64,000 nucleotides of DNA from Desulfarculaceae bacterium. GTDB lineage: Bacteria > Desulfobacterota > Desulfarculia > Desulfarculales > Desulfarculaceae. The notes beneath the pieces were generated by a model, which did no database searches, was not told the origin of the DNA, and was given only the letters and a program-made list of their open reading frames with translations. Position numbers and translations under genes: made by a program. Shown here in pieces: positions 67-52,584 of the stretch. Location of the stretch: assembly GCA_020444545.1 (NCBI GenBank), contig JAHLKT010000002.1, positions 340,870-404,869 on the forward strand, given 5' to 3'. The stretch's first letter is position 1, and each line of letters opens with the position of its first letter.

Positions 67-82
67 AGCAAGCCGCGTGCCA
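67..82 (-). promoter_or_regulatory. Sigma-54 (-24/-12) promoter for an off-window gene
   Basis: Read on the minus strand the site is TGGCAC-GCGGC-TTGCT. It matches all 11 specified bases of the sigma-54 consensus TGGCACN5TTGCW and has the GG-N10-GC spacing. The promoter points left, so the controlled gene lies outside the window. Confidence 0.75.
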
Positions 83-38310: not shown

Positions 38311-38338
38311 AAAAAAGCCCGCGCCTTGCGGCGCGGGC
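38311..38338 (-). terminator. Intrinsic terminator of gene 38388
   Basis: A perfect 9-bp stem GCCCGCGCC / GGCGCGGGC with a 4-nt loop has six T on the minus strand after it. Confidence 0.85.
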
Positions 38339-38387
38339 TCCGGGTGGGCGCGGGGGTGACACGCCCGCCCAACTGCAGGAGGAAGAG

Positions 38388-38687
38388 CTAGGCTGCCTCG
38401 GCGGCAACCTCGAGATTGAGCTGCTTGGCGTTCTGGGCTCCCACCTCGCACTCGCGGCAGGGCACCAGGTTCATCTTGAATACGAAAATATGGAAAGGCT
38501 CCGCACCGATCTTGGCCCAGCGGGGCTCGTTGGCCGCCAAGTGGCGGCGGGCGCAGGCTTCCTTGGTCAGGCGGAGTTTGCCCGGTTGACCAGGGCACTC
38601 GATCATCACGCCGGGGTTCTCGGCCAGCCAAGCTTCGGTGTCGATGTTGGGAACGAACTGCTTTCGGGATCGTCTCGTGCGCCTCAT
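38388..38687 (-). CDS. 99-residue Cys-containing protein, sigma-54 dependent
   Basis: The protein was not assigned to a named family. It begins with a basic RRTRRSRK stretch, has a CPGQPGKLRLTKEACARRH segment in the middle and a VPCRECEVG pair near the end, so it may bind a metal through Cys31, Cys45 and Cys77/80. AAGGGGG gives a strong ribosome site, a perfect sigma-54 promoter lies 52 bp upstream and an intrinsic terminator follows, which together support a real, regulated gene. It diverges from a receiver-like gene that also has a sigma-54 promoter. Confidence 0.78.
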   Translation of the reverse strand: MRRTRRSRKQFVPNIDTEAWLAENPGVMIECPGQPGKLRLTKEACARRHLAANEPRWAKIGAEPFHIFVFKMNLVPCRECEVGAQNAKQLNLEVAAEAA

Positions 38688-38738
38688 TGTATAACCCCCT
38701 TTGGCTTGGTGTCCTTCTTAGGAATTGGTAATCAACTA

Positions 38739-38754
38739 AGCAAATCGGGTGCCA
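38739..38754 (-). promoter_or_regulatory. Sigma-54 promoter of gene 38388
   Basis: On the minus strand TGGCAC-CCGAT-TTGCT matches all 11 specified consensus bases with correct GG-N10-GC spacing. Confidence 0.85.
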
Positions 38755-38914
38755 AAAAGTTGTCTCTAATGCTCACAAGGATTCAATTAAAAATAAACGC
38801 GAAATAACAGATAGTTATATCATGGTGACAATTTGGTGACGGGGAAGAGGGCGTTTTCGGGGTGCTCCGGTCGACCTTGATGCGCCCAATTTGGTATGTC
38901 TGATTCGATACATG

Positions 38915-38930
38915 TGGCGAAATGCGGACA
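38915..38930. promoter_or_regulatory. Activator site S1
   Basis: TGGCGAAATGCGGACA matches the site at 44587-44602 in 14 of 16 positions. It lies between the facing sigma-54 promoters. Confidence 0.6.
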
Positions 38931-38992
38931 GTGGTGGATTCGCCGTACTTAGGGGCCATTTTGTTCGCCTTTCCGCTTAGCGACAACGGATG

Positions 38993-39008
38993 TGTCGAAA
39001 TCCGGTCA
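38993..39008. promoter_or_regulatory. Activator site S2
   Basis: TGTCGAAATCCGGTCA closely matches the reverse complement of the site at 44565-44580 (TGTCGAATACCGGACA). It lies about 85 bp upstream of the + sigma-54 promoter's start point. Confidence 0.6.
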
Positions 39009-39021
39009 GTTGCTTTGTTTC

Positions 39022-39041
39022 TCAGGAACCTAAGTTCCTGA
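39022..39041. promoter_or_regulatory. Perfect inverted repeat TCAGGAAC-CTAA-GTTCCTGA
   Basis: Eight-base arms with a 4-bp spacer end 20 bp before the + sigma-54 promoter. It may be a separate regulator site or a hairpin. Confidence 0.45.
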
Positions 39042-39060
39042 TAAGGCTACCCCCGCTGTT

Positions 39061-39076
39061 TGGCGTTTTTATTGCA
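39061..39076 (+). promoter_or_regulatory. Sigma-54 promoter of the receiver-like gene
   Basis: TGGCGT-TTTTA-TTGCA matches 9 of 11 specified consensus bases with correct GG-N10-GC spacing, 66 bp before the start codon at 39142. Confidence 0.7.
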
Positions 39077-39141
39077 GATGCTTTACGTAGATGTTGCGGA
39101 AAATGCCCGCCCCTCCGCAGGTATCGAAGTGGGGAAAAACC

Positions 39142-39513
39142 ATGATGAGAGTAGTCATAGTCGAGCGTGACGCCATCCTGGCGCGGTTGTACCGCGAGGA
39201 GTTGGAGGAGGCCGGGTTCGGGGTGCGGGTAAGCCCGGATCTGCGCAGCGCGGTCCGGATCATGGAAGGCGACCCCGCCCACGTGCTGGTGACCGACCTC
39301 GACACCATGGGCGGCCGCCTGGACCACTGGATGGACCATCTGCGGCAGGTGCACAGCGGGGGCGTGTTGCTCCTGGCCTCCCGGGCCCGTCGCCTGCCCG
39401 CCATCAAGGGCCTTTCGGTGATTCCCAAGTCCTCCGACGTTAGCGGCCTGGTGAGCCGCCTGCGCTCCCTATGCGGCGAGGCCCTGTGGGCCGGCACCTC
39501 CGGCGTCTGCTGA
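39142..39513 (+). CDS. Stand-alone receiver-like protein
   Basis: The ATG at 39142 (followed by a second ATG) has GGGGA upstream and sits after the predicted sigma-54 promoter. The 123 residues follow a CheY-like plan: VVIVERD with an acidic residue near position 10, a likely phospho-acceptor D52 in VLVTDLD, LLLASRAR for the beta-4 Ser/Thr and the conserved Lys in VIPKSSD. Only one acidic residue is seen in the early pocket, so phosphorylation is plausible but unproven. There is no output domain. Confidence 0.75.
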   Translation: MMRVVIVERDAILARLYREELEEAGFGVRVSPDLRSAVRIMEGDPAHVLVTDLDTMGGRLDHWMDHLRQVHSGGVLLLASRARRLPAIKGLSVIPKSSDVSGLVSRLRSLCGEALWAGTSGVC

Positions 39514-42883: not shown

Positions 42884-44338
42884 TCACGCCTCGGAGGCCC
42901 CAGCCTCTCCCTCGCCGCTCGCGGGCGGCTCCACCAGGCCGTATCTCTTGATCTTGCCGTAGAGGGTGCTGCGCGCGATGCCCAAGACCTGGGCGGCGCG
43001 GTATTTGTTCCAGCCCACCCGCTCCAGGGTGGATGCGATCATCTCCTTTTCCTGGTCCCACAGCCGCCCCACCTGCCGGGACGCGGCCTGGCCGGCGGGC
43101 GCGTCTCCCTCGGCCAGGCGAGGGGGCAGGTTGGCCAGGGACACCACGTCATCGCGGCACATCAGGGCGGCGTGCTCCACCACATTGCGCAGCTCGCGCA
43201 CGTTGCCCGGCCAGGAGTAGCCCATGAGCCGGGCCAGGGCCTCGCGCTCGAAGCCGAAGATGTTCTTGCCCAGACGCTCGGCCTGAGACGAAAGAAAGGC
43301 GTGGGCCAAAAAGGGGATGTCCTCGGGCCGCTGGCGCAGGGAAGGCACCTCCAGGCGCACCACGTTGAGGCGGTAGAACAGGTCCTCGCGAAAATGCCCC
43401 TTGGCCACCATTTCGGCCAGGGGCTTGTTGGTGGCCGCCACCACCCGCACGTCAACGGTCAGGGTCTTTTCGCCGCCCACCCGCTCGAACTGGCGGTCCT
43501 GGATCACCCGGAGCAGCGCCAGCTGGGTCAACGGGCTTATCTCCGCGATCTCGTCGAGGAATATGGTGCCGCCTTCAGACAGCTCGAAGCGCCCGGCCTT
43601 GCGCCGGATGGCCCCGGTAAAGGCGCCCTTCTCGTGGCCGAAGAGCTCGGAGGAGAGCAGGGTCTCGGGATAGGCCGAGCAGTTTACCACCACCAGGGGG
43701 CCGTCGTGACGCCGGGAAAAGCGGTGCACCGTCTCGGCCAACAGCCCCTTGCCCGTGCCCGATTCGCCCTCCAGGAGCACCGTGGTGTCGGTGTCCACCA
43801 CGTTTTCCAACACGTCGGCCAGGGACTGCACCTGGGACGAGCCGCCCATGACCTGGCTGAGGTAGCGGCGCATCTCCAGGGATCGCTGGGCCTGCTGCCG
43901 GCCGGAGCGTTCGTGGGCCAGGTCTTCGTATAGGCTGCGGATGCGCAGCATCACCCGCACCCGGGCCAGCATGCGCTCCACGTCCACCGGCTTGGTGAGG
44001 AAGTCCTCGGCCCCCAGCTCCAGGGCCTTGAGGGTGGTGTCCTTGTCGTTCAGGGCCGAGAGCACCACCACCGGCACATAGCGCAGCTTGCCGTCCTGCT
44101 TGATGTACTTGAGCACCTCCCAGCCGCTGAGGCCGGGCAGCACCAGGTCCAGGAGCACCAGATCGAAATCGCCGTCGTCGGACAGGTGGTCCAGGGCTGC
44201 CTCGCCGCTGGCCGCCACCACCGCGGCGTGGCCCTCTGACTCCATCAGGGCGCTGAACAGGGTGGCCGAGTCTGGCTCGTCCTCCACCACCAGCACCCGG
44301 GCGTGGGGCTTTATGCGCGGTAGGGGGACACTGCTCAC
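42884..44338 (-). CDS. Sigma-54-dependent response regulator, NtrC family
   Basis: A GTG at 44338 overlaps the stop of the small upstream gene and has GGAGGAG before it. The 484-residue protein has an N-terminal receiver domain (D in DLVLLDLVLPG, K in FLTKPVD), an AAA+ domain with GESGTGKG and the sigma-54 contact loop GAFTGA, and a Fis-type helix-turn-helix (NKYRAAQVLGIARSTLYGK). It activates sigma-54 promoters when phosphorylated. No histidine kinase is adjacent. Its own operon promoter carries two 16-bp sites also present at the 38.7-39.1 kb sigma-54 region. Confidence 0.93.
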   Translation of the reverse strand: MSSVPLPRIKPHARVLVVEDEPDSATLFSALMESEGHAAVVAASGEAALDHLSDDGDFDLVLLDLVLPGLSGWEVLKYIKQDGKLRYVPVVVLSALNDKDTTLKALELGAEDFLTKPVDVERMLARVRVMLRIRSLYEDLAHERSGRQQAQRSLEMRRYLSQVMGGSSQVQSLADVLENVVDTDTTVLLEGESGTGKGLLAETVHRFSRRHDGPLVVVNCSAYPETLLSSELFGHEKGAFTGAIRRKAGRFELSEGGTIFLDEIAEISPLTQLALLRVIQDRQFERVGGEKTLTVDVRVVAATNKPLAEMVAKGHFREDLFYRLNVVRLEVPSLRQRPEDIPFLAHAFLSSQAERLGKNIFGFEREALARLMGYSWPGNVRELRNVVEHAALMCRDDVVSLANLPPRLAEGDAPAGQAASRQVGRLWDQEKEMIASTLERVGWNKYRAAQVLGIARSTLYGKIKRYGLVEPPASGEGEAGASEA

Positions 44339-44526
44339 CGGGGCTCCTCCGGCTCCGGGCGCAGGGCGCAGCCCGGGCATATCTCGCCCAGGCGCTCCAG
44401 GGCCAAGTCCTGGTTCATCTCGGGCCAGTTGTCAGCCTGGCCGCCCAGTTCGCGGCCCTGGCGCATCAGCTCCGGGCAGGTGCCCGCGCTCAGGTGCAGG
44501 CAGCGGGTCCACAGGGGTTCTTGCAT
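44335..44526 (-). CDS. 63-residue Cys protein coupled to the NtrC-type regulator
   Basis: This protein was not assigned to a known family. It has Cys at 9, 17, 50 and 53 (TRCLHLSAGTCPEL and ICPGCAL), a pattern that could bind a metal or an Fe-S cluster. The regulator's GTG start overlaps its stop codon, so the two are made together. It carries no signal peptide. A small partner that senses or modulates the regulator is inferred from this coupling only. Confidence 0.68.
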   Translation of the reverse strand: MQEPLWTRCLHLSAGTCPELMRQGRELGGQADNWPEMNQDLALERLGEICPGCALRPEPEEPR

Positions 44527-44554: not shown

Positions 44555-44583
44555 ATCATAGCACTGTCCGGTATTCGACACAA
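44555..44583 (-). promoter_or_regulatory. Sigma-70 promoter of the regulator operon
   Basis: TTGTGT and TATGAT are separated by 17 bp on the minus strand. Site T1 lies inside this promoter, as expected for autorepression. Confidence 0.55.
44565..44580. promoter_or_regulatory. Regulator site T1
   Basis: TGTCCGGTATTCGACA is partly palindromic (TGTC and GACA ends). Its reverse complement resembles site S2 near 39 kb. It falls between the -35 and -10 of the operon promoter. Confidence 0.6.
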
Positions 44584-47509: not shown

Positions 47510-49594
47510 TCAGGTCTCTTTGTTGTAGCGCTCGCGGGCCCGCTTGACCGCCTGTTGCAGCTCCGCCATTTGCACCGGCTTTTCCAGGAAATCCGAGGCG
47601 CCCATGCGCATGGCCGCCACCACCGACTCCTTGTCGCCGTGCCCGGTGATCACGATCACCTCGGTGTCCGGGCTCATTCGCTTGACGTCCTGCAAGACCT
47701 CCAGCCCGCCCTTGCCCGGCATCTTCAGGTCGGTGACCAGGATGGGGGTGGGCGACTGGGCGAACTTCTCTATGGCCTCCACCGGGTCGTTGAAACTGAC
47801 GATGTCGTAGGCTTCCCGCTTCAGGAAGCTGCAATACACATTCAGTACCCCGGGGTCGTCGTCCACCACCGTGACCCGGCGGTCCTCCAGGCCCAGGATG
47901 GACAGGGCCGCCTCGACCACCTCGGGATCGAAATGGGTGCCCGAGCCTTGTTCCAGCACCGCGCAGGCTTCGTGTATGCTGTGGGCCGGACGATAGGGAC
48001 GGTGGCTGGTCATGGCCTCCACCACGTCGCACACCGCCAGCAGCCGGGCCCAGGGGTGGATCTCCTCGCCCTTGAGCCCCTGGGGATAGCCCGAGCCGTC
48101 GATGCGCTCGTGGTGCTCGTAGACCACGCGGGCCACCGGCCAGGGGAAGGAGATGTTCTCCAGGATGCGGAAGGCCGTGGCCGGGTGCTCGCGGATGATG
48201 CCCATCTCGTGATCGGTCAAGCGGCCGGGCCGGTTGAGGATGTCCAGGGGGATGGCTCCCTTGCCGATGTCGTGTAGCAGGCCGCAATACTTCAGGCCGG
48301 TCAGGTCGTCATCGGACAGGCCCATCTCGCCGCCCACCTGCACCGCCAGCTCGGCCACCCGCTGGCTGTGGCCGGAGGTGTAGGGGTCGCGGCTGTCCAC
48401 CATGTTGGTCAGGGCCAGGGTGGTGGCCTCCAGCCCCCGGTTGAGGGCCATGGTCAGCTCGTTGCGCTCCTGCTCGCGCTTGCGGTGCTCGGTAACGTCC
48501 TTGAACAGGTGCACCGTGCCCTGGACCTCTCCCCGGTCGTCGGTGACCGGAGTCAGGGTAACGGCGAAAAGGCGGCCCGAATTGGGGTCTTGGAAATCGC
48601 CCGAGCACATTTTGCCGTCCTGGAGGACGCCATTTTGCAGGCAATCCTCCGGCGGTGCGTAGGCGCCGTGCATCAGTTGGTAGCAAGACTGGCCCACGAT
48701 TTCGCTGTAGTTCAGGCCCAGGTAATCGCGCATGGCCTTGTTGCAGCGTTGGACTTTGAAGTCCTTGTCGATGACCACCAGCAGGTCTTCCAGGGAGTCG
48801 AAGCATTGGCGCCATTCGGTGGCCGCCTTGCTAACCTCGGCCTCGGCCCGGCGCAGCTCGCTCAGGTCGGTGTAGATGGCCATGGAGCCCAGGCATTCGC
48901 CGTCTTCCCGCAACAGGGGAGAGGCGGACACGAAGATGGGTATCCGGCGGCCGTCCTTGGTGGTCACCTCCAGCTCATAGGACGAGGAGCTGCCCTGGCG
49001 CCGCTTGGCCAGCTCTCCCTTGAGGAACTCGGCGCCGTCTTTTTCGACCAGGGAGAACAAGGAGCCGCCCACCAGCTCCGCCTCGCTGTAGCCCAATAGC
49101 TCGGCCAGGGCCGGGTTGGCGAAGGTGATCACCCCGTTGGTGTCCACCGACATCAGGCCGTCCTTCATGGTCTCCACCAGGGTGCGGTAGCGCCCTTCGC
49201 TGTTGGCGACCATGTGCTGGCGGGAGGCCATGCGGTTAAGGGCCTTGACCGCCACCGCCTCCAAGAGGTCGAGCTGGTTGATGCCCAGATAGTCGGCCGC
49301 GCCCAGGCGCAGCAGCTCGGTCATGACCTCCTGGCTGGGCCGGGGGTCCAGCACCACCACGGGACGGATCAGCATACGCCGCTCGAGCAGATTCAAAACC
49401 TCGCGCGCTCCGCAGGGGCCGTCGTTATAGGCGATGATCAGTTCAGGGGGGTCATCGAGGGCGCCGGCCAACTCGGCCTGGTCGTGGGCGTGGCTGAAAC
49501 GGGGGGGGCTATCCTGGCCCCGCAACAAATCCGAGATTTCTTGCTGCAACTTGGGCGGCAGCCCTAGGAGCAATATGGAGCGGGCCAGGGGCAT
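47510..49594 (-). CDS. REC-PAS-PAS-HD-GYP-REC signalling protein
   Basis: An ATG at 49594 with GGTGGAAAG upstream is preferred over a GTG at 49609. The 694-residue protein has a degenerate receiver (1-120), two PAS domains (about 130-260 and 265-380), an HD-GYP phosphodiesterase (about 395-560; HDIGK and HHERIDGSGYP) and a C-terminal receiver (565-690; VDDDPG, VTDLKMPG, FLEKP). HD-GYP domains hydrolyse cyclic di-GMP. Having the receiver at the end rather than the front is less common. A sigma-70 promoter precedes it. Confidence 0.88.
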   Translation of the reverse strand: MPLARSILLLGLPPKLQQEISDLLRGQDSPPRFSHAHDQAELAGALDDPPELIIAYNDGPCGAREVLNLLERRMLIRPVVVLDPRPSQEVMTELLRLGAADYLGINQLDLLEAVAVKALNRMASRQHMVANSEGRYRTLVETMKDGLMSVDTNGVITFANPALAELLGYSEAELVGGSLFSLVEKDGAEFLKGELAKRRQGSSSSYELEVTTKDGRRIPIFVSASPLLREDGECLGSMAIYTDLSELRRAEAEVSKAATEWRQCFDSLEDLLVVIDKDFKVQRCNKAMRDYLGLNYSEIVGQSCYQLMHGAYAPPEDCLQNGVLQDGKMCSGDFQDPNSGRLFAVTLTPVTDDRGEVQGTVHLFKDVTEHRKREQERNELTMALNRGLEATTLALTNMVDSRDPYTSGHSQRVAELAVQVGGEMGLSDDDLTGLKYCGLLHDIGKGAIPLDILNRPGRLTDHEMGIIREHPATAFRILENISFPWPVARVVYEHHERIDGSGYPQGLKGEEIHPWARLLAVCDVVEAMTSHRPYRPAHSIHEACAVLEQGSGTHFDPEVVEAALSILGLEDRRVTVVDDDPGVLNVYCSFLKREAYDIVSFNDPVEAIEKFAQSPTPILVTDLKMPGKGGLEVLQDVKRMSPDTEVIVITGHGDKESVVAAMRMGASDFLEKPVQMAELQQAVKRARERYNKET

Positions 49595-49667
49595 AGCTGA
49601 GCTTTCCACCGGACAGGGACGGACCTTCCCCGTTAAGGACCCATCATTCTTGCCAATATGACCTTAG

Positions 49668-49724: not shown

Positions 49725-51083
49725 TCAGGCGGGGGGCAGGCCGTACTCCTTAATTTTGTTCTGCAAGGTCTTGCGGGTGATGCCCAGCATCTCCGCCGCC
49801 CGGGTGCGGTTGCCCTCGGTGGCGGCCAGGGTCTTTTCGATTAACATGCGCTCGGCGTCGCGGATGGTCATGCCCGCGTGCAGGCTGTCCCCGGCCTCGG
49901 ATTCGGGAACCCGGTCGCCCAGGAGCAGATCGCCCGGCTCTATGAGCTGCCCTTGCGACAAAATCACCGCCCGCTCCACTCCGTTGATAAGCTCGCGCAC
50001 GTTGCCCGGCCAGGCGTAGGACATGAGCCGGGTGCGGGCCGCGGGGCTGAAGCCCTTTATCTCCCGCTGGTTCTCGGCCGCGAAACGCCGGAGAAACAGC
50101 TCGGCCAACAGCAGCACGTCCTCGCCCCGGCCGCGCAGGGGGGGCATGGCCAGGTTGACCACGTTGAGGCGGTAGTAGAGATCCTCGCGGAAGGCGCCTT
50201 CGCTCACCGCGGCGGCCAGGTCGCGGTTGGTGGCCGCGATCACCCGCACGTCGGCGTGGAAGGTCTTGTCGCTGCCCACCGGGGAGTACTCGCCTTCTTG
50301 CAAGGCCCTGAGCAGCTTGGCCTGGAGGGCCGGGGTCATCTCGCCGATCTCGTCCAAAAACAGGGTGCCCCCGTCGGCGGCGGCCATGCGCCCCTCGCGG
50401 CGGCTGGTGGCCCCGGTGAAGGAGCCTTTCTCGTGGCCGAACAGCTCGCTCTCCAGAAGGTTCTCCGGCAGGGCCGCGCAGTTCACCTTGATCAGGGGCC
50501 CCTGGGCCCGGGCTGAGTTCTGGTGCAGTATCTGAGCCACCACCTCCTTGCCCGTGCCGCTCTCGCCGGTGATGAGCACCGTGGCCTGGCTGGGGGCCAC
50601 CAGGGCCATGGTCTCCTTGAGGCGGCGCATGGGCGGGCTTTCGCCCACCAGGGCCGAGAAGTCGAAGCGCTCGTTCAGGCGCTCGGCTTGGGAAGCCACC
50701 TGGGCGGCCAGGCGGGCGGCCTTGAGCTGGCGCTCGATCTTTATGAGCACCTCGTCCACGTCCAGGGGCTTGGTCAGATAGTCCTCGGCCCCGATCTTGA
50801 GGGCCTGCACCGCGCTGTCGATGGAGCCGTAGGCGGTCATCATCATCACCGGCAGCTCGGGGTGGGCCCCCTTGATGCGCCCCAGGGCCTCCATGCCGGT
50901 CACCCGGGGCATCACCAGGTCCATGAGCACCAGGTCCACCGGCTCGGCCTCCACCGTGGCCACCGCCGCGCCGCCGTCGGCAGCCTCGGCCACGCGGTAG
51001 CCCGCCTCTTCCAGGTGGGCGGTGAGCATCAAGCGATGGGCCGCCTCGTCGTCCACTACCAGGATCAGGGGTTGCTTGCTCAT
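49725..51083 (-). CDS. zraR: Sigma-54 response regulator ZraR-like
   Basis: The ATG at 51083 overlaps the kinase stop codon (ATGA). The 452-residue protein has a receiver (VDDEAAH, D in DLVLMDLVMPR, K in YLTKPLD), an AAA+ domain with GESGTGKE and the GSFTGA sigma-54 loop, and a Fis-like helix-turn-helix (NRTRAAEMLGITRKTLQNK). It forms a set with a sensor kinase and a ZraP-like periplasmic protein, matching zraP-zraSR of enteric bacteria. A sigma-54 promoter lies before zraP, its expected target. Confidence 0.9.
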   Translation of the reverse strand: MSKQPLILVVDDEAAHRLMLTAHLEEAGYRVAEAADGGAAVATVEAEPVDLVLMDLVMPRVTGMEALGRIKGAHPELPVMMMTAYGSIDSAVQALKIGAEDYLTKPLDVDEVLIKIERQLKAARLAAQVASQAERLNERFDFSALVGESPPMRRLKETMALVAPSQATVLITGESGTGKEVVAQILHQNSARAQGPLIKVNCAALPENLLESELFGHEKGSFTGATSRREGRMAAADGGTLFLDEIGEMTPALQAKLLRALQEGEYSPVGSDKTFHADVRVIAATNRDLAAAVSEGAFREDLYYRLNVVNLAMPPLRGRGEDVLLLAELFLRRFAAENQREIKGFSPAARTRLMSYAWPGNVRELINGVERAVILSQGQLIEPGDLLLGDRVPESEAGDSLHAGMTIRDAERMLIEKTLAATEGNRTRAAEMLGITRKTLQNKIKEYGLPPA

Positions 51084-52525
51084 GCCTTGGCCTTTGTCAG
51101 GGGCAGGGTCAGGGTGAACACCGCGCCGCCCTCCGGGCGGTTGGCAGCGCTCAGCTCGCCGCCCTGGGCGGAGGCCAGGCGACTGGCGATGGCCAGGCCC
51201 AGGCCGGTGCCCCGCTCCTTGGTGCTGAAGAAGGGATCGAAGATTTCGTTTTCCTGGCCCGGGGGCAGGCCGGGGCCCTGGTCGGCCACGCTGAGCGCCA
51301 CGCTCTGGCCGTTGCGCGCCGCGCTCACCTCCACCCGGCCCTGGCCGTTGTTGGCGTCCATGGCGTTGAGAAGGAGGTTCATGAGTATCTGGCGCACCTG
51401 GTCCGGGTCGGCCGGAACCTGAGGCAGGCCGGGCTCGCAGTGGGCCGCGACCTCCACGCCCTGGCCCCGGGGCTCGTCGGCCAGCAGGCGGATGGTGCCA
51501 TCGATGCTCTCGCCCAGGTCCAGGGGGATGAGCCGGGGCGGCCGGGGGCGGGTGTAGTCCAACAGGCCCGAGACCACCCGCTCCAGGCGGTCCACCTCGG
51601 CCACGGCGGTCTGGGCGCACTGGGCCTGGCGGGTGCCTTCCTGCTGGCCCTTGGCCAAAAACTGCACCAGCCCGCGCAGGGCCGAAAGGGGGTTGCGCAC
51701 TTCGTGGGCCACCGAGCCGGCCAAACGGCCCACCGCGGCCAGGTGCTGGTTGGCCGCCACTTCCTCGCGCAGGCGGCCCAGCTCGCGTTGGCGACGGCGG
51801 GCCAGGAGAAACATGAACGCGGCCACCGTGCCCGCGGCCAGGAAGACCACGCCCGCCAGGAACAGGGAGCTGGCCAGGTCGCGCTTTTGGGCGGTCTGGA
51901 TGCTCTTGGTGGATAGGCGCACCAGCACGTAGCCCGGCTTTTGGTTCGGGGCGGGCAGGCCCATCATGTTCATGCCCGGGGCCATCATGCGTCCCATCTC
52001 TTCCCGATGGTCGCGTGCCCAATTGGGCAGCCTGCCGCCCGGCCGCCGCAGCGGAGCCAGGGGCTCGAAGGGCCGCCCCAGGACCAGCTCTCCCTTGAGG
52101 AAGGTGGTTACCGGCATACGATGGTCGATGGCCGCGTCCACCTCCTGGGGCAGGCCGCCCAGGGCCATGCGCCGCACGTCCTTGGCGTTGGGCACCGAGA
52201 CTCCGGCGGCCATAAGCTCGTTGCGCGGGTCCACCACGGCCAGGGAGAGCAGGTTGGGCAGGCGCAGCATCTCCTCCACCAAAGACTGCATACGCAGGGT
52301 GCCCCACATGTGGTGGCGCATACCGAAGCGGGTGGCCCCCTCCAGGGAGCGCACCACCAGCTCGCCCTGGGTGGCCAGGGAGTGGCGCATCAGCTCGCCG
52401 GTCTTTTGCATACGCCGGGCGGTGGTCAGGCCGATCACCACCAGGATCAGCAACAACATCCCGGCCAGCAAGAGAACGGGCAGACCGCTCTTGGGCTCGC
52501 GCTTCTTGGGGGTGTTGTTGCTCAT
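51080..52525 (-). CDS. zraS: Membrane sensor histidine kinase ZraS-like
   Basis: The ATG at 52525 with AGGAGA upstream is chosen. The 481-residue protein has two membrane segments (about 18-38 and 220-245) around a periplasmic sensor domain, and a kinase core with H in GSVAHEVRNPLSALRG, N-box NLLLNAMDAN, DQGPGLP and GTGLGLAI. The periplasmic part contains HH and Met-rich stretches (RMMAPGMNMMG) that could bind metal. It should phosphorylate the overlapping ZraR-like regulator in response to envelope or metal stress. Confidence 0.87.
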   Translation of the reverse strand: MSNNTPKKREPKSGLPVLLLAGMLLLILVVIGLTTARRMQKTGELMRHSLATQGELVVRSLEGATRFGMRHHMWGTLRMQSLVEEMLRLPNLLSLAVVDPRNELMAAGVSVPNAKDVRRMALGGLPQEVDAAIDHRMPVTTFLKGELVLGRPFEPLAPLRRPGGRLPNWARDHREEMGRMMAPGMNMMGLPAPNQKPGYVLVRLSTKSIQTAQKRDLASSLFLAGVVFLAAGTVAAFMFLLARRRQRELGRLREEVAANQHLAAVGRLAGSVAHEVRNPLSALRGLVQFLAKGQQEGTRQAQCAQTAVAEVDRLERVVSGLLDYTRPRPPRLIPLDLGESIDGTIRLLADEPRGQGVEVAAHCEPGLPQVPADPDQVRQILMNLLLNAMDANNGQGRVEVSAARNGQSVALSVADQGPGLPPGQENEIFDPFFSTKERGTGLGLAIASRLASAQGGELSAANRPEGGAVFTLTLPLTKAKA

Positions 52526-52542
52526 CCTGTCGGGTCTCCTAG

Positions 52543-52584
52543 ACAATCAAGGCCCGGGCCTTTGGGGGCCCGGACCCTGATTGT
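52543..52584 (-). promoter_or_regulatory. Long hairpin between zraP and zraS
   Basis: Eighteen-base arms, with two G-U-compatible mismatches, enclose a 6-nt loop. No T run follows, so it is more likely an mRNA processing or stability hairpin than a full terminator. Confidence 0.65.

Follow-up and report, generated by a model that had tools for sequence, protein, structure and literature searches.

Divergent transcription units that depend on a single sigma-54 activator are known from the orp operons of Desulfovibrio vulgaris Hildenborough, both of which are controlled by DVU2106 (PMC3897727). The activator is made from a sigma-70 promoter that is overlapped by its own binding site, which gives a negative loop, and IHF sites are located between the activator sites and the promoters (PMC3897727). 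Another system that can be used for comparison is NmpR of Myxococcus xanthus, an NtrC-type response regulator with tandem dyad enhancers that recognises GCGCA-N5-TGCGC (PMC11841059). A literature search for Desulfarculus in combination with sigma-54 found nothing.

The locus considered here lies in a 64-kb stretch of DNA, the whole of which is called the window, from a 4.4-Mb genome (G000) that was compared within a set of 20 family genomes. The order of the genes is aconitase (-), cys (-), receiver (+), Lon-like protease (+), a CMD-like protein (+) and the regulator (-). The cys gene (38388-38687, minus strand) encodes a protein of 99 amino acids, and the receiver gene (39142-39513, plus strand) a small stand-alone receiver-like protein of 123 amino acids; these are the two predicted targets. 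Position 39142 was taken as the start codon of the receiver gene; if the longer open reading frame beginning at 39091 were translated instead, the leader would shrink to some 4 nt. Among named relatives, those closest to the locus are genomes of the Desulfarculaceae, a family of sulfate-reducer-like bacteria. The two genes are arranged head to head in 17 Desulfarculaceae genomes, with a gap of 444-638 bp between them. In two of the genomes (G010 and G014), an extra stretch resembling a small gene is present between the cys and aconitase genes.

We consider it very probable that the region between cys and receiver is a dedicated sigma-54 control region, in which the regulator encoded at 42884-44338 and three intergenic sites (A1, A2 and C) would drive both divergent promoters. 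In the mechanism that we propose, the active NtrC-type regulator would bind the three copies of TGTCGAAAATCGGACA, and bending of the DNA by IHF would aid its contact with sigma-54 RNA polymerase at the two promoters, the firing of which would yield the two small proteins, one with four cysteines and the other receiver-like. The regulator would limit its own synthesis by binding to a single further copy of the site, which lies within the sigma-70-type promoter of its gene.

Two divergent promoters and a shared array of sites

The −24/−12 promoter of the cys gene (TGGCACCCGATTTGCT, 38739-38754, minus strand) has a predicted start near 38728, which gives a 40-nt leader. Its core TGGCACCCGATTTGC (38740-38754, minus strand) matches the sigma-54 consensus perfectly, as was already recognised in the first-pass annotation, and the window contains two such perfect matches, against 0.29 expected by chance. 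The other one, TGGCACGCGGCTTGC, is found at the window edge (68-82, minus strand). The −24/−12 promoter of the receiver gene (TGGCGTTTTTATTGCA, 39061-39076, plus strand) has a predicted start near 39087, and its core TGGCGTTTTTATTGC (39061-39075, plus strand) has an intact GG-N10-GC and two mismatches, in agreement with the 9/11 match reported before. By itself this promoter is unremarkable and does not exceed chance expectation: 63 sigma-54 matches with at most two mismatches were observed in the window against 90 expected, fewer than in shuffles; the case for it is made by conservation. In both promoters a GG at −24 and a GC at −12 are separated by 10 bases. Upstream of the orthologous genes, all 17 genomes keep the cys promoter, which lies 44-66 bp ahead of the start codon; 16 of the 17 also keep the receiver promoter, with G008 as the sole exception, so that the proposal of two sigma-54 promoters stands. 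The elements score above the 95% shuffle level wherever they are present, but since a few shuffles of some regions scored similarly, it is the consistent position and not the score alone that constitutes the evidence. The promoters had also been described as facing each other; their orientation is in fact divergent (back-to-back), each pointing away from the other. The gene for sigma-54, rpoN, gave one match (PF04552) in G000 and is present in 19 of the 20 genomes searched.

Using an iterative matrix, three 16-bp sites were found in each intergenic region, with the consensus TGTCGAAAATCGGACA, an imperfect TGTC-N8-GACA dyad. In the window these predicted activator sites are A1 (TGTCTGATTCGATACA, 38897-38912), A2 (TGGCGAAATGCGGACA, 38915-38930, exactly 18 bp past A1) and C (TGTCGAAATCCGGTCA, 38993-39008, centred some 85 bp ahead of where receiver transcription is predicted to start), all on the plus strand. 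The first-pass annotation had placed A2 and C correctly, but it counted two sites and overlooked A1. The distance from A1 to A2 is exactly 18 bp and that from A2 to C 78-81 bp in all 17 genomes. G009, a genome that is complete on a single contig (3,655,731 bases), carries both promoters along with the three sites. If transcription is taken to start 12 bp past the GC element, the sites are located at enhancer distances from both promoters, as had been claimed for A2 and C: C, A2 and A1 at 85, 164 and 182 bp from the predicted receiver start, and A1, A2 and C at 177, 195 and 273 bp from the predicted cys start. Multiple dyad enhancer sites some 80-200 bp upstream of the start are a hallmark by which NtrC-type activators are recognised, and activator sites typically keep a fixed spacing of this kind to a sigma-54 start. 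Across the genomes, the predicted receiver start lies 85 ± 1 bp from C and 164 ± 1 bp from A2, and the predicted cys start 173 ± 6 bp from A1.

A matrix that was trained on the window's genus only recovered all three sites, with the same spacings, in nine genomes of other genera, where the triple scores ranged from 38 to 60; the highest value reached in 100 dinucleotide shuffles of each region was 12.7. The tandem site pattern occurs exclusively at the cys-receiver locus in the 20 genomes searched. A profile search of the whole of G000 (E up to 10) reported just two places among the 150 of 183 first-look candidates that were scored, the cys-receiver locus and the promoter of the regulator, and further weak sites elsewhere in this genome are possible. 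In G005, a single match near a higBA-like gene pair (C91:7005) was attributed to chance, no sigma-54 promoter being nearby.

Between C and the receiver promoter an IHF-like site is present (TATCAGGAACTTA, 39031-39043, minus strand), which matches WATCARNNNNTTR at 9 of 9 positions. Such a block, with 8-9 of 9 matches, is found at C+38/39 in 8 of the 17 genomes, including 7 of the 8 from the window's genus; on the cys side, no IHF-like site was seen consistently.

With respect to the division of labour between the two promoters, it can be argued that the genuine target is the receiver gene, since the phasing of the sites with its promoter is rigid. The shared array would then mainly serve the receiver promoter, and the cys promoter would be activated weakly or by other means. 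The distances are constant to within about 1 bp for the receiver promoter and to within about 6 bp for the cys promoter, and the conserved IHF-like site is found on the receiver side only. On the other hand, DNA looping tolerates a variable distance, and the cys promoter is usually closer to the consensus and has been lost from none of the genomes; in G008 it persists, as do all sites, in spite of the loss of the receiver promoter. Such a one-sided array appears rather unlikely to us, if still worth keeping in mind. That one regulator switches on both small proteins together is most likely, because the arrangement is kept in every relative with a readable region. That the two genes are tightly switched together, as stated in the first-pass annotation, remains an inference, and the situation in G008 indicates that evolution can separate one output from the other.

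The candidate regulator and its own promoter

The best candidate for the protein that binds A1, A2 and C is an NtrC-type activator (REC, sigma-54 AAA+ with GAFTGA, HTH_8) encoded at 42884-44338 on the minus strand. This gene, 4 kb away, had been proposed as the regulator before, and the proposal gains support from the comparison, through the site in its own promoter, synteny and co-occurrence. The domain matches are PF00158 (4.6e-66), PF02954 (8.9e-14) and PF00072 (1.8e-25), the GAFTGA motif was read in the sequence, and all orthologs that could be aligned over the recognition helix share its sequence ARSTLY. The GTG start at 44338 fits because it overlaps the stop of a previously unreported 63-codon open reading frame (44335-44526, minus strand), which precedes the regulator gene and overlaps it translationally. 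The encoded small protein has four conserved cysteines (W..C.HL..G.CP...C..C) and may act together with the regulator, as its sensor or partner; the open reading frame is present in 9 of the 14 orthologous regulator loci examined and was not found in the other five (G004-G008).

There is no kinase gene adjacent to that of the regulator; the nearest one (51080-52546) immediately precedes the gene of a different activator, with which it forms a separate kinase and NtrC-type activator pair (49725-52546, minus strand) about 5 kb from the regulator. The neighbourhood also includes a gene for a PAS-PAS-HD protein with a C-terminal receiver domain, an unusual domain order (47510-49609, minus strand). 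It can be imagined that the 63-codon four-cysteine protein senses metal or redox conditions and controls the kinase-less regulator, and that the cys protein and a phosphorylation-independent receiver protein feed back on it. We regard this as quite doubtful; if true, it would represent a hitherto undescribed type of signalling module that works independently of a kinase.

The highest-scoring activator-type site of the entire window, TGTCGAATACCGGACA (44565-44580, minus strand), is situated inside the sigma-70-type promoter TTGTGT-N17-TATGAT that serves the 63-codon open reading frame and the regulator; this promoter was read by eye and is absent from the consensus-scan list. It is supported by the same layout, which is predicted to allow self-repression, in six genomes of the window's genus (G000 and five relatives), and three genomes of another genus carry a related 17-bp variant of the site near the −10 element of the regulator promoter. 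In G002, G008, G009, G010 and G014 the regulator promoter has no recognisable site. The fact that the best site outside the intergenic region sits in the promoter of the regulator itself points to this protein as the activator and suggests that it represses its own synthesis. An ortholog of the regulator is present in 14 of the 20 family genomes. In the nine genomes where it shares a contig with the gene pair (G000, G001, G002, G005, G006, G008, G009, G010 and G013) it is some 4-19 kb away, and in G003 a partial ortholog adjoins the pair at a contig end. The cys, receiver and regulator genes are all missing from G012 (92% complete), which is weak evidence because this genome is small and reduced.

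Since G000 encodes many other sigma-54 activators, including that of the pair at 49725-52546, a different activator might bind to the promoters and sites as described here, in which case the nearby regulator would be a conserved neighbour with an unrelated function. Its distance of 4-19 kb from its targets, to which it is not adjacent, and the lack of a recognisable site of its own in five relatives would fit this explanation. Against it stand the self-site at the same position in six genomes and the outcome of the G000 profile search, in which, among the 150 of 183 candidates that were scored, the only other site was in the promoter of this very regulator. We judge the involvement of a different activator unlikely. 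The position of that site within a sigma-70-type promoter resembles that of a repressor site, and the 16-bp sites could accordingly be thought to bind a repressor or another non-activator, with the sigma-54 promoters being driven from elsewhere. This is very improbable: the sites occupy fixed positions at 85, 164 and 182 bp ahead of a sigma-54 start, as is usual for activator sites, and activators of this type are known to repress themselves (orp; PMC3897727). That promoters and sites are merely chance matches, as the receiver promoter taken alone could be, has a negligible probability and is refuted by the comparative tests, given the conserved position, orientation and spacing across several genera of the family.

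Transcription units and target proteins

An intrinsic terminator of the cys transcript is predicted at 38313-38342 (minus strand), ahead of the aconitase gene, with a GC-rich stem, a GCAA loop and a run of T residues (RNA fold −30.5 kcal/mol, z −4.57); the consensus scan did not list it. Similar stem-loop-plus-T sequences occur downstream of the cys gene in relatives. In the window, the aconitase gene is provided with a separate sigma-70-like element. Nearly all genomes carry a conserved TGTGYTATYCT-like block ahead of the Lon-like gene, and in several of them a terminator-like sequence follows the receiver gene (both read by eye). Taken together, these elements suggest that cys and receiver are probably both single-gene transcripts, and thus a dedicated two-gene regulon.

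The cys protein contains four invariant cysteines (C31-P-x-Q-P-G, C45 and C77-x2-C80; 24 family members), and a metal or redox role may be inferred. It gave no match in Pfam, NCBIfam, PHROGs or, by sequence, the PDB, and its AlphaFold model is too poor for use (pLDDT 50.6). Several further families of the phylum contain relatives of this four-cysteine family (CPxQPGxL...C..R...CxxC), up to four per genome; G108, G118 and G143 each have three or four copies. Sigma-54 elements were found upstream of distant homologs in three cases only (L019, L023 and L091), and since most distant homologs are without such promoters, sigma-54 control is not a trait of the cys family as a whole. In G020, a relative at the order level, a cys homolog with a strong sigma-54 promoter of its own is followed by a gene for a 103-aa protein that consists of a HisKA phospho-acceptor domain only, with no ATPase (L117:278-610 and L117:725-1006, both minus strand). 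In G071 and G143, small open reading frames that follow cys homologs seemed receiver-like by eye but gained no support from a profile search.

The receiver protein has a weak match to the Pfam Response_reg family (1.4e-3), and its structural model shows a receiver fold (pLDDT 77.5; Foldseek to receiver domains 1.4e-6) from which helix alpha-4 is absent. The beta-5 lysine K96 is invariant in the 17 orthologs. The acceptor Asp52 at the end of beta-3 in the window protein is replaced by Asn in G004, G005 and G006 and by Ser in G007; because of these replacements in four of the 17 orthologs, phosphorylation at residue 52 cannot be a requirement for the whole family. The receiver gene adjoins the Lon-like protease gene wherever the contig reaches far enough, and a role of the receiver protein as a protease adaptor is conceivable.

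Comparison with described systems

The design of the circuit is already known from the orp logic, whereas its two outputs are uncharacterised. With a sharp predicted binding site, one likely regulator and two predicted targets, two small protein families become directly testable. Furthermore, a geometry that is fixed across several genera offers a natural data set on the rigidity of enhancer-promoter spacing when one array is combined with two sigma-54 promoters.

As in the orp system, the sigma-54 promoters are divergent; a single activator would serve both. A predicted site overlaps the sigma-70-type promoter of the regulator in G000 and five relatives, whereas the remaining genomes that were read have a variant of it or none, and a putative counterpart of the orp IHF sites is present between enhancer and promoter on the receiver side in 8 of 17 genomes. 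The orp promoters have separate activator sites, whereas here one three-site array lies between the genes; the orp activator gene is part of the cluster, whereas the regulator is encoded 4 kb away; and the orp outputs are multi-gene operons for a known complex instead of two uncharacterised single genes (PMC3897727). The predicted regulator resembles NmpR in its REC-AAA+-HTH_8 type, in the paired dyad sites upstream of sigma-54 promoters and in the site at the promoter of its own operon, where binding is predicted (PMC11841059). It differs from NmpR by its TGTC-N8-GACA-like site and by having no adjacent partner kinase. Regarding the receiver protein, the fold indicated by the model and Foldseek and the conserved beta-5 lysine are shared with single-domain response regulators of the CheY, CpdR and DivK type, from which it is set apart by a model without helix alpha-4 and by the change of the acceptor Asp to Asn or Ser in 4 of 17 orthologs.
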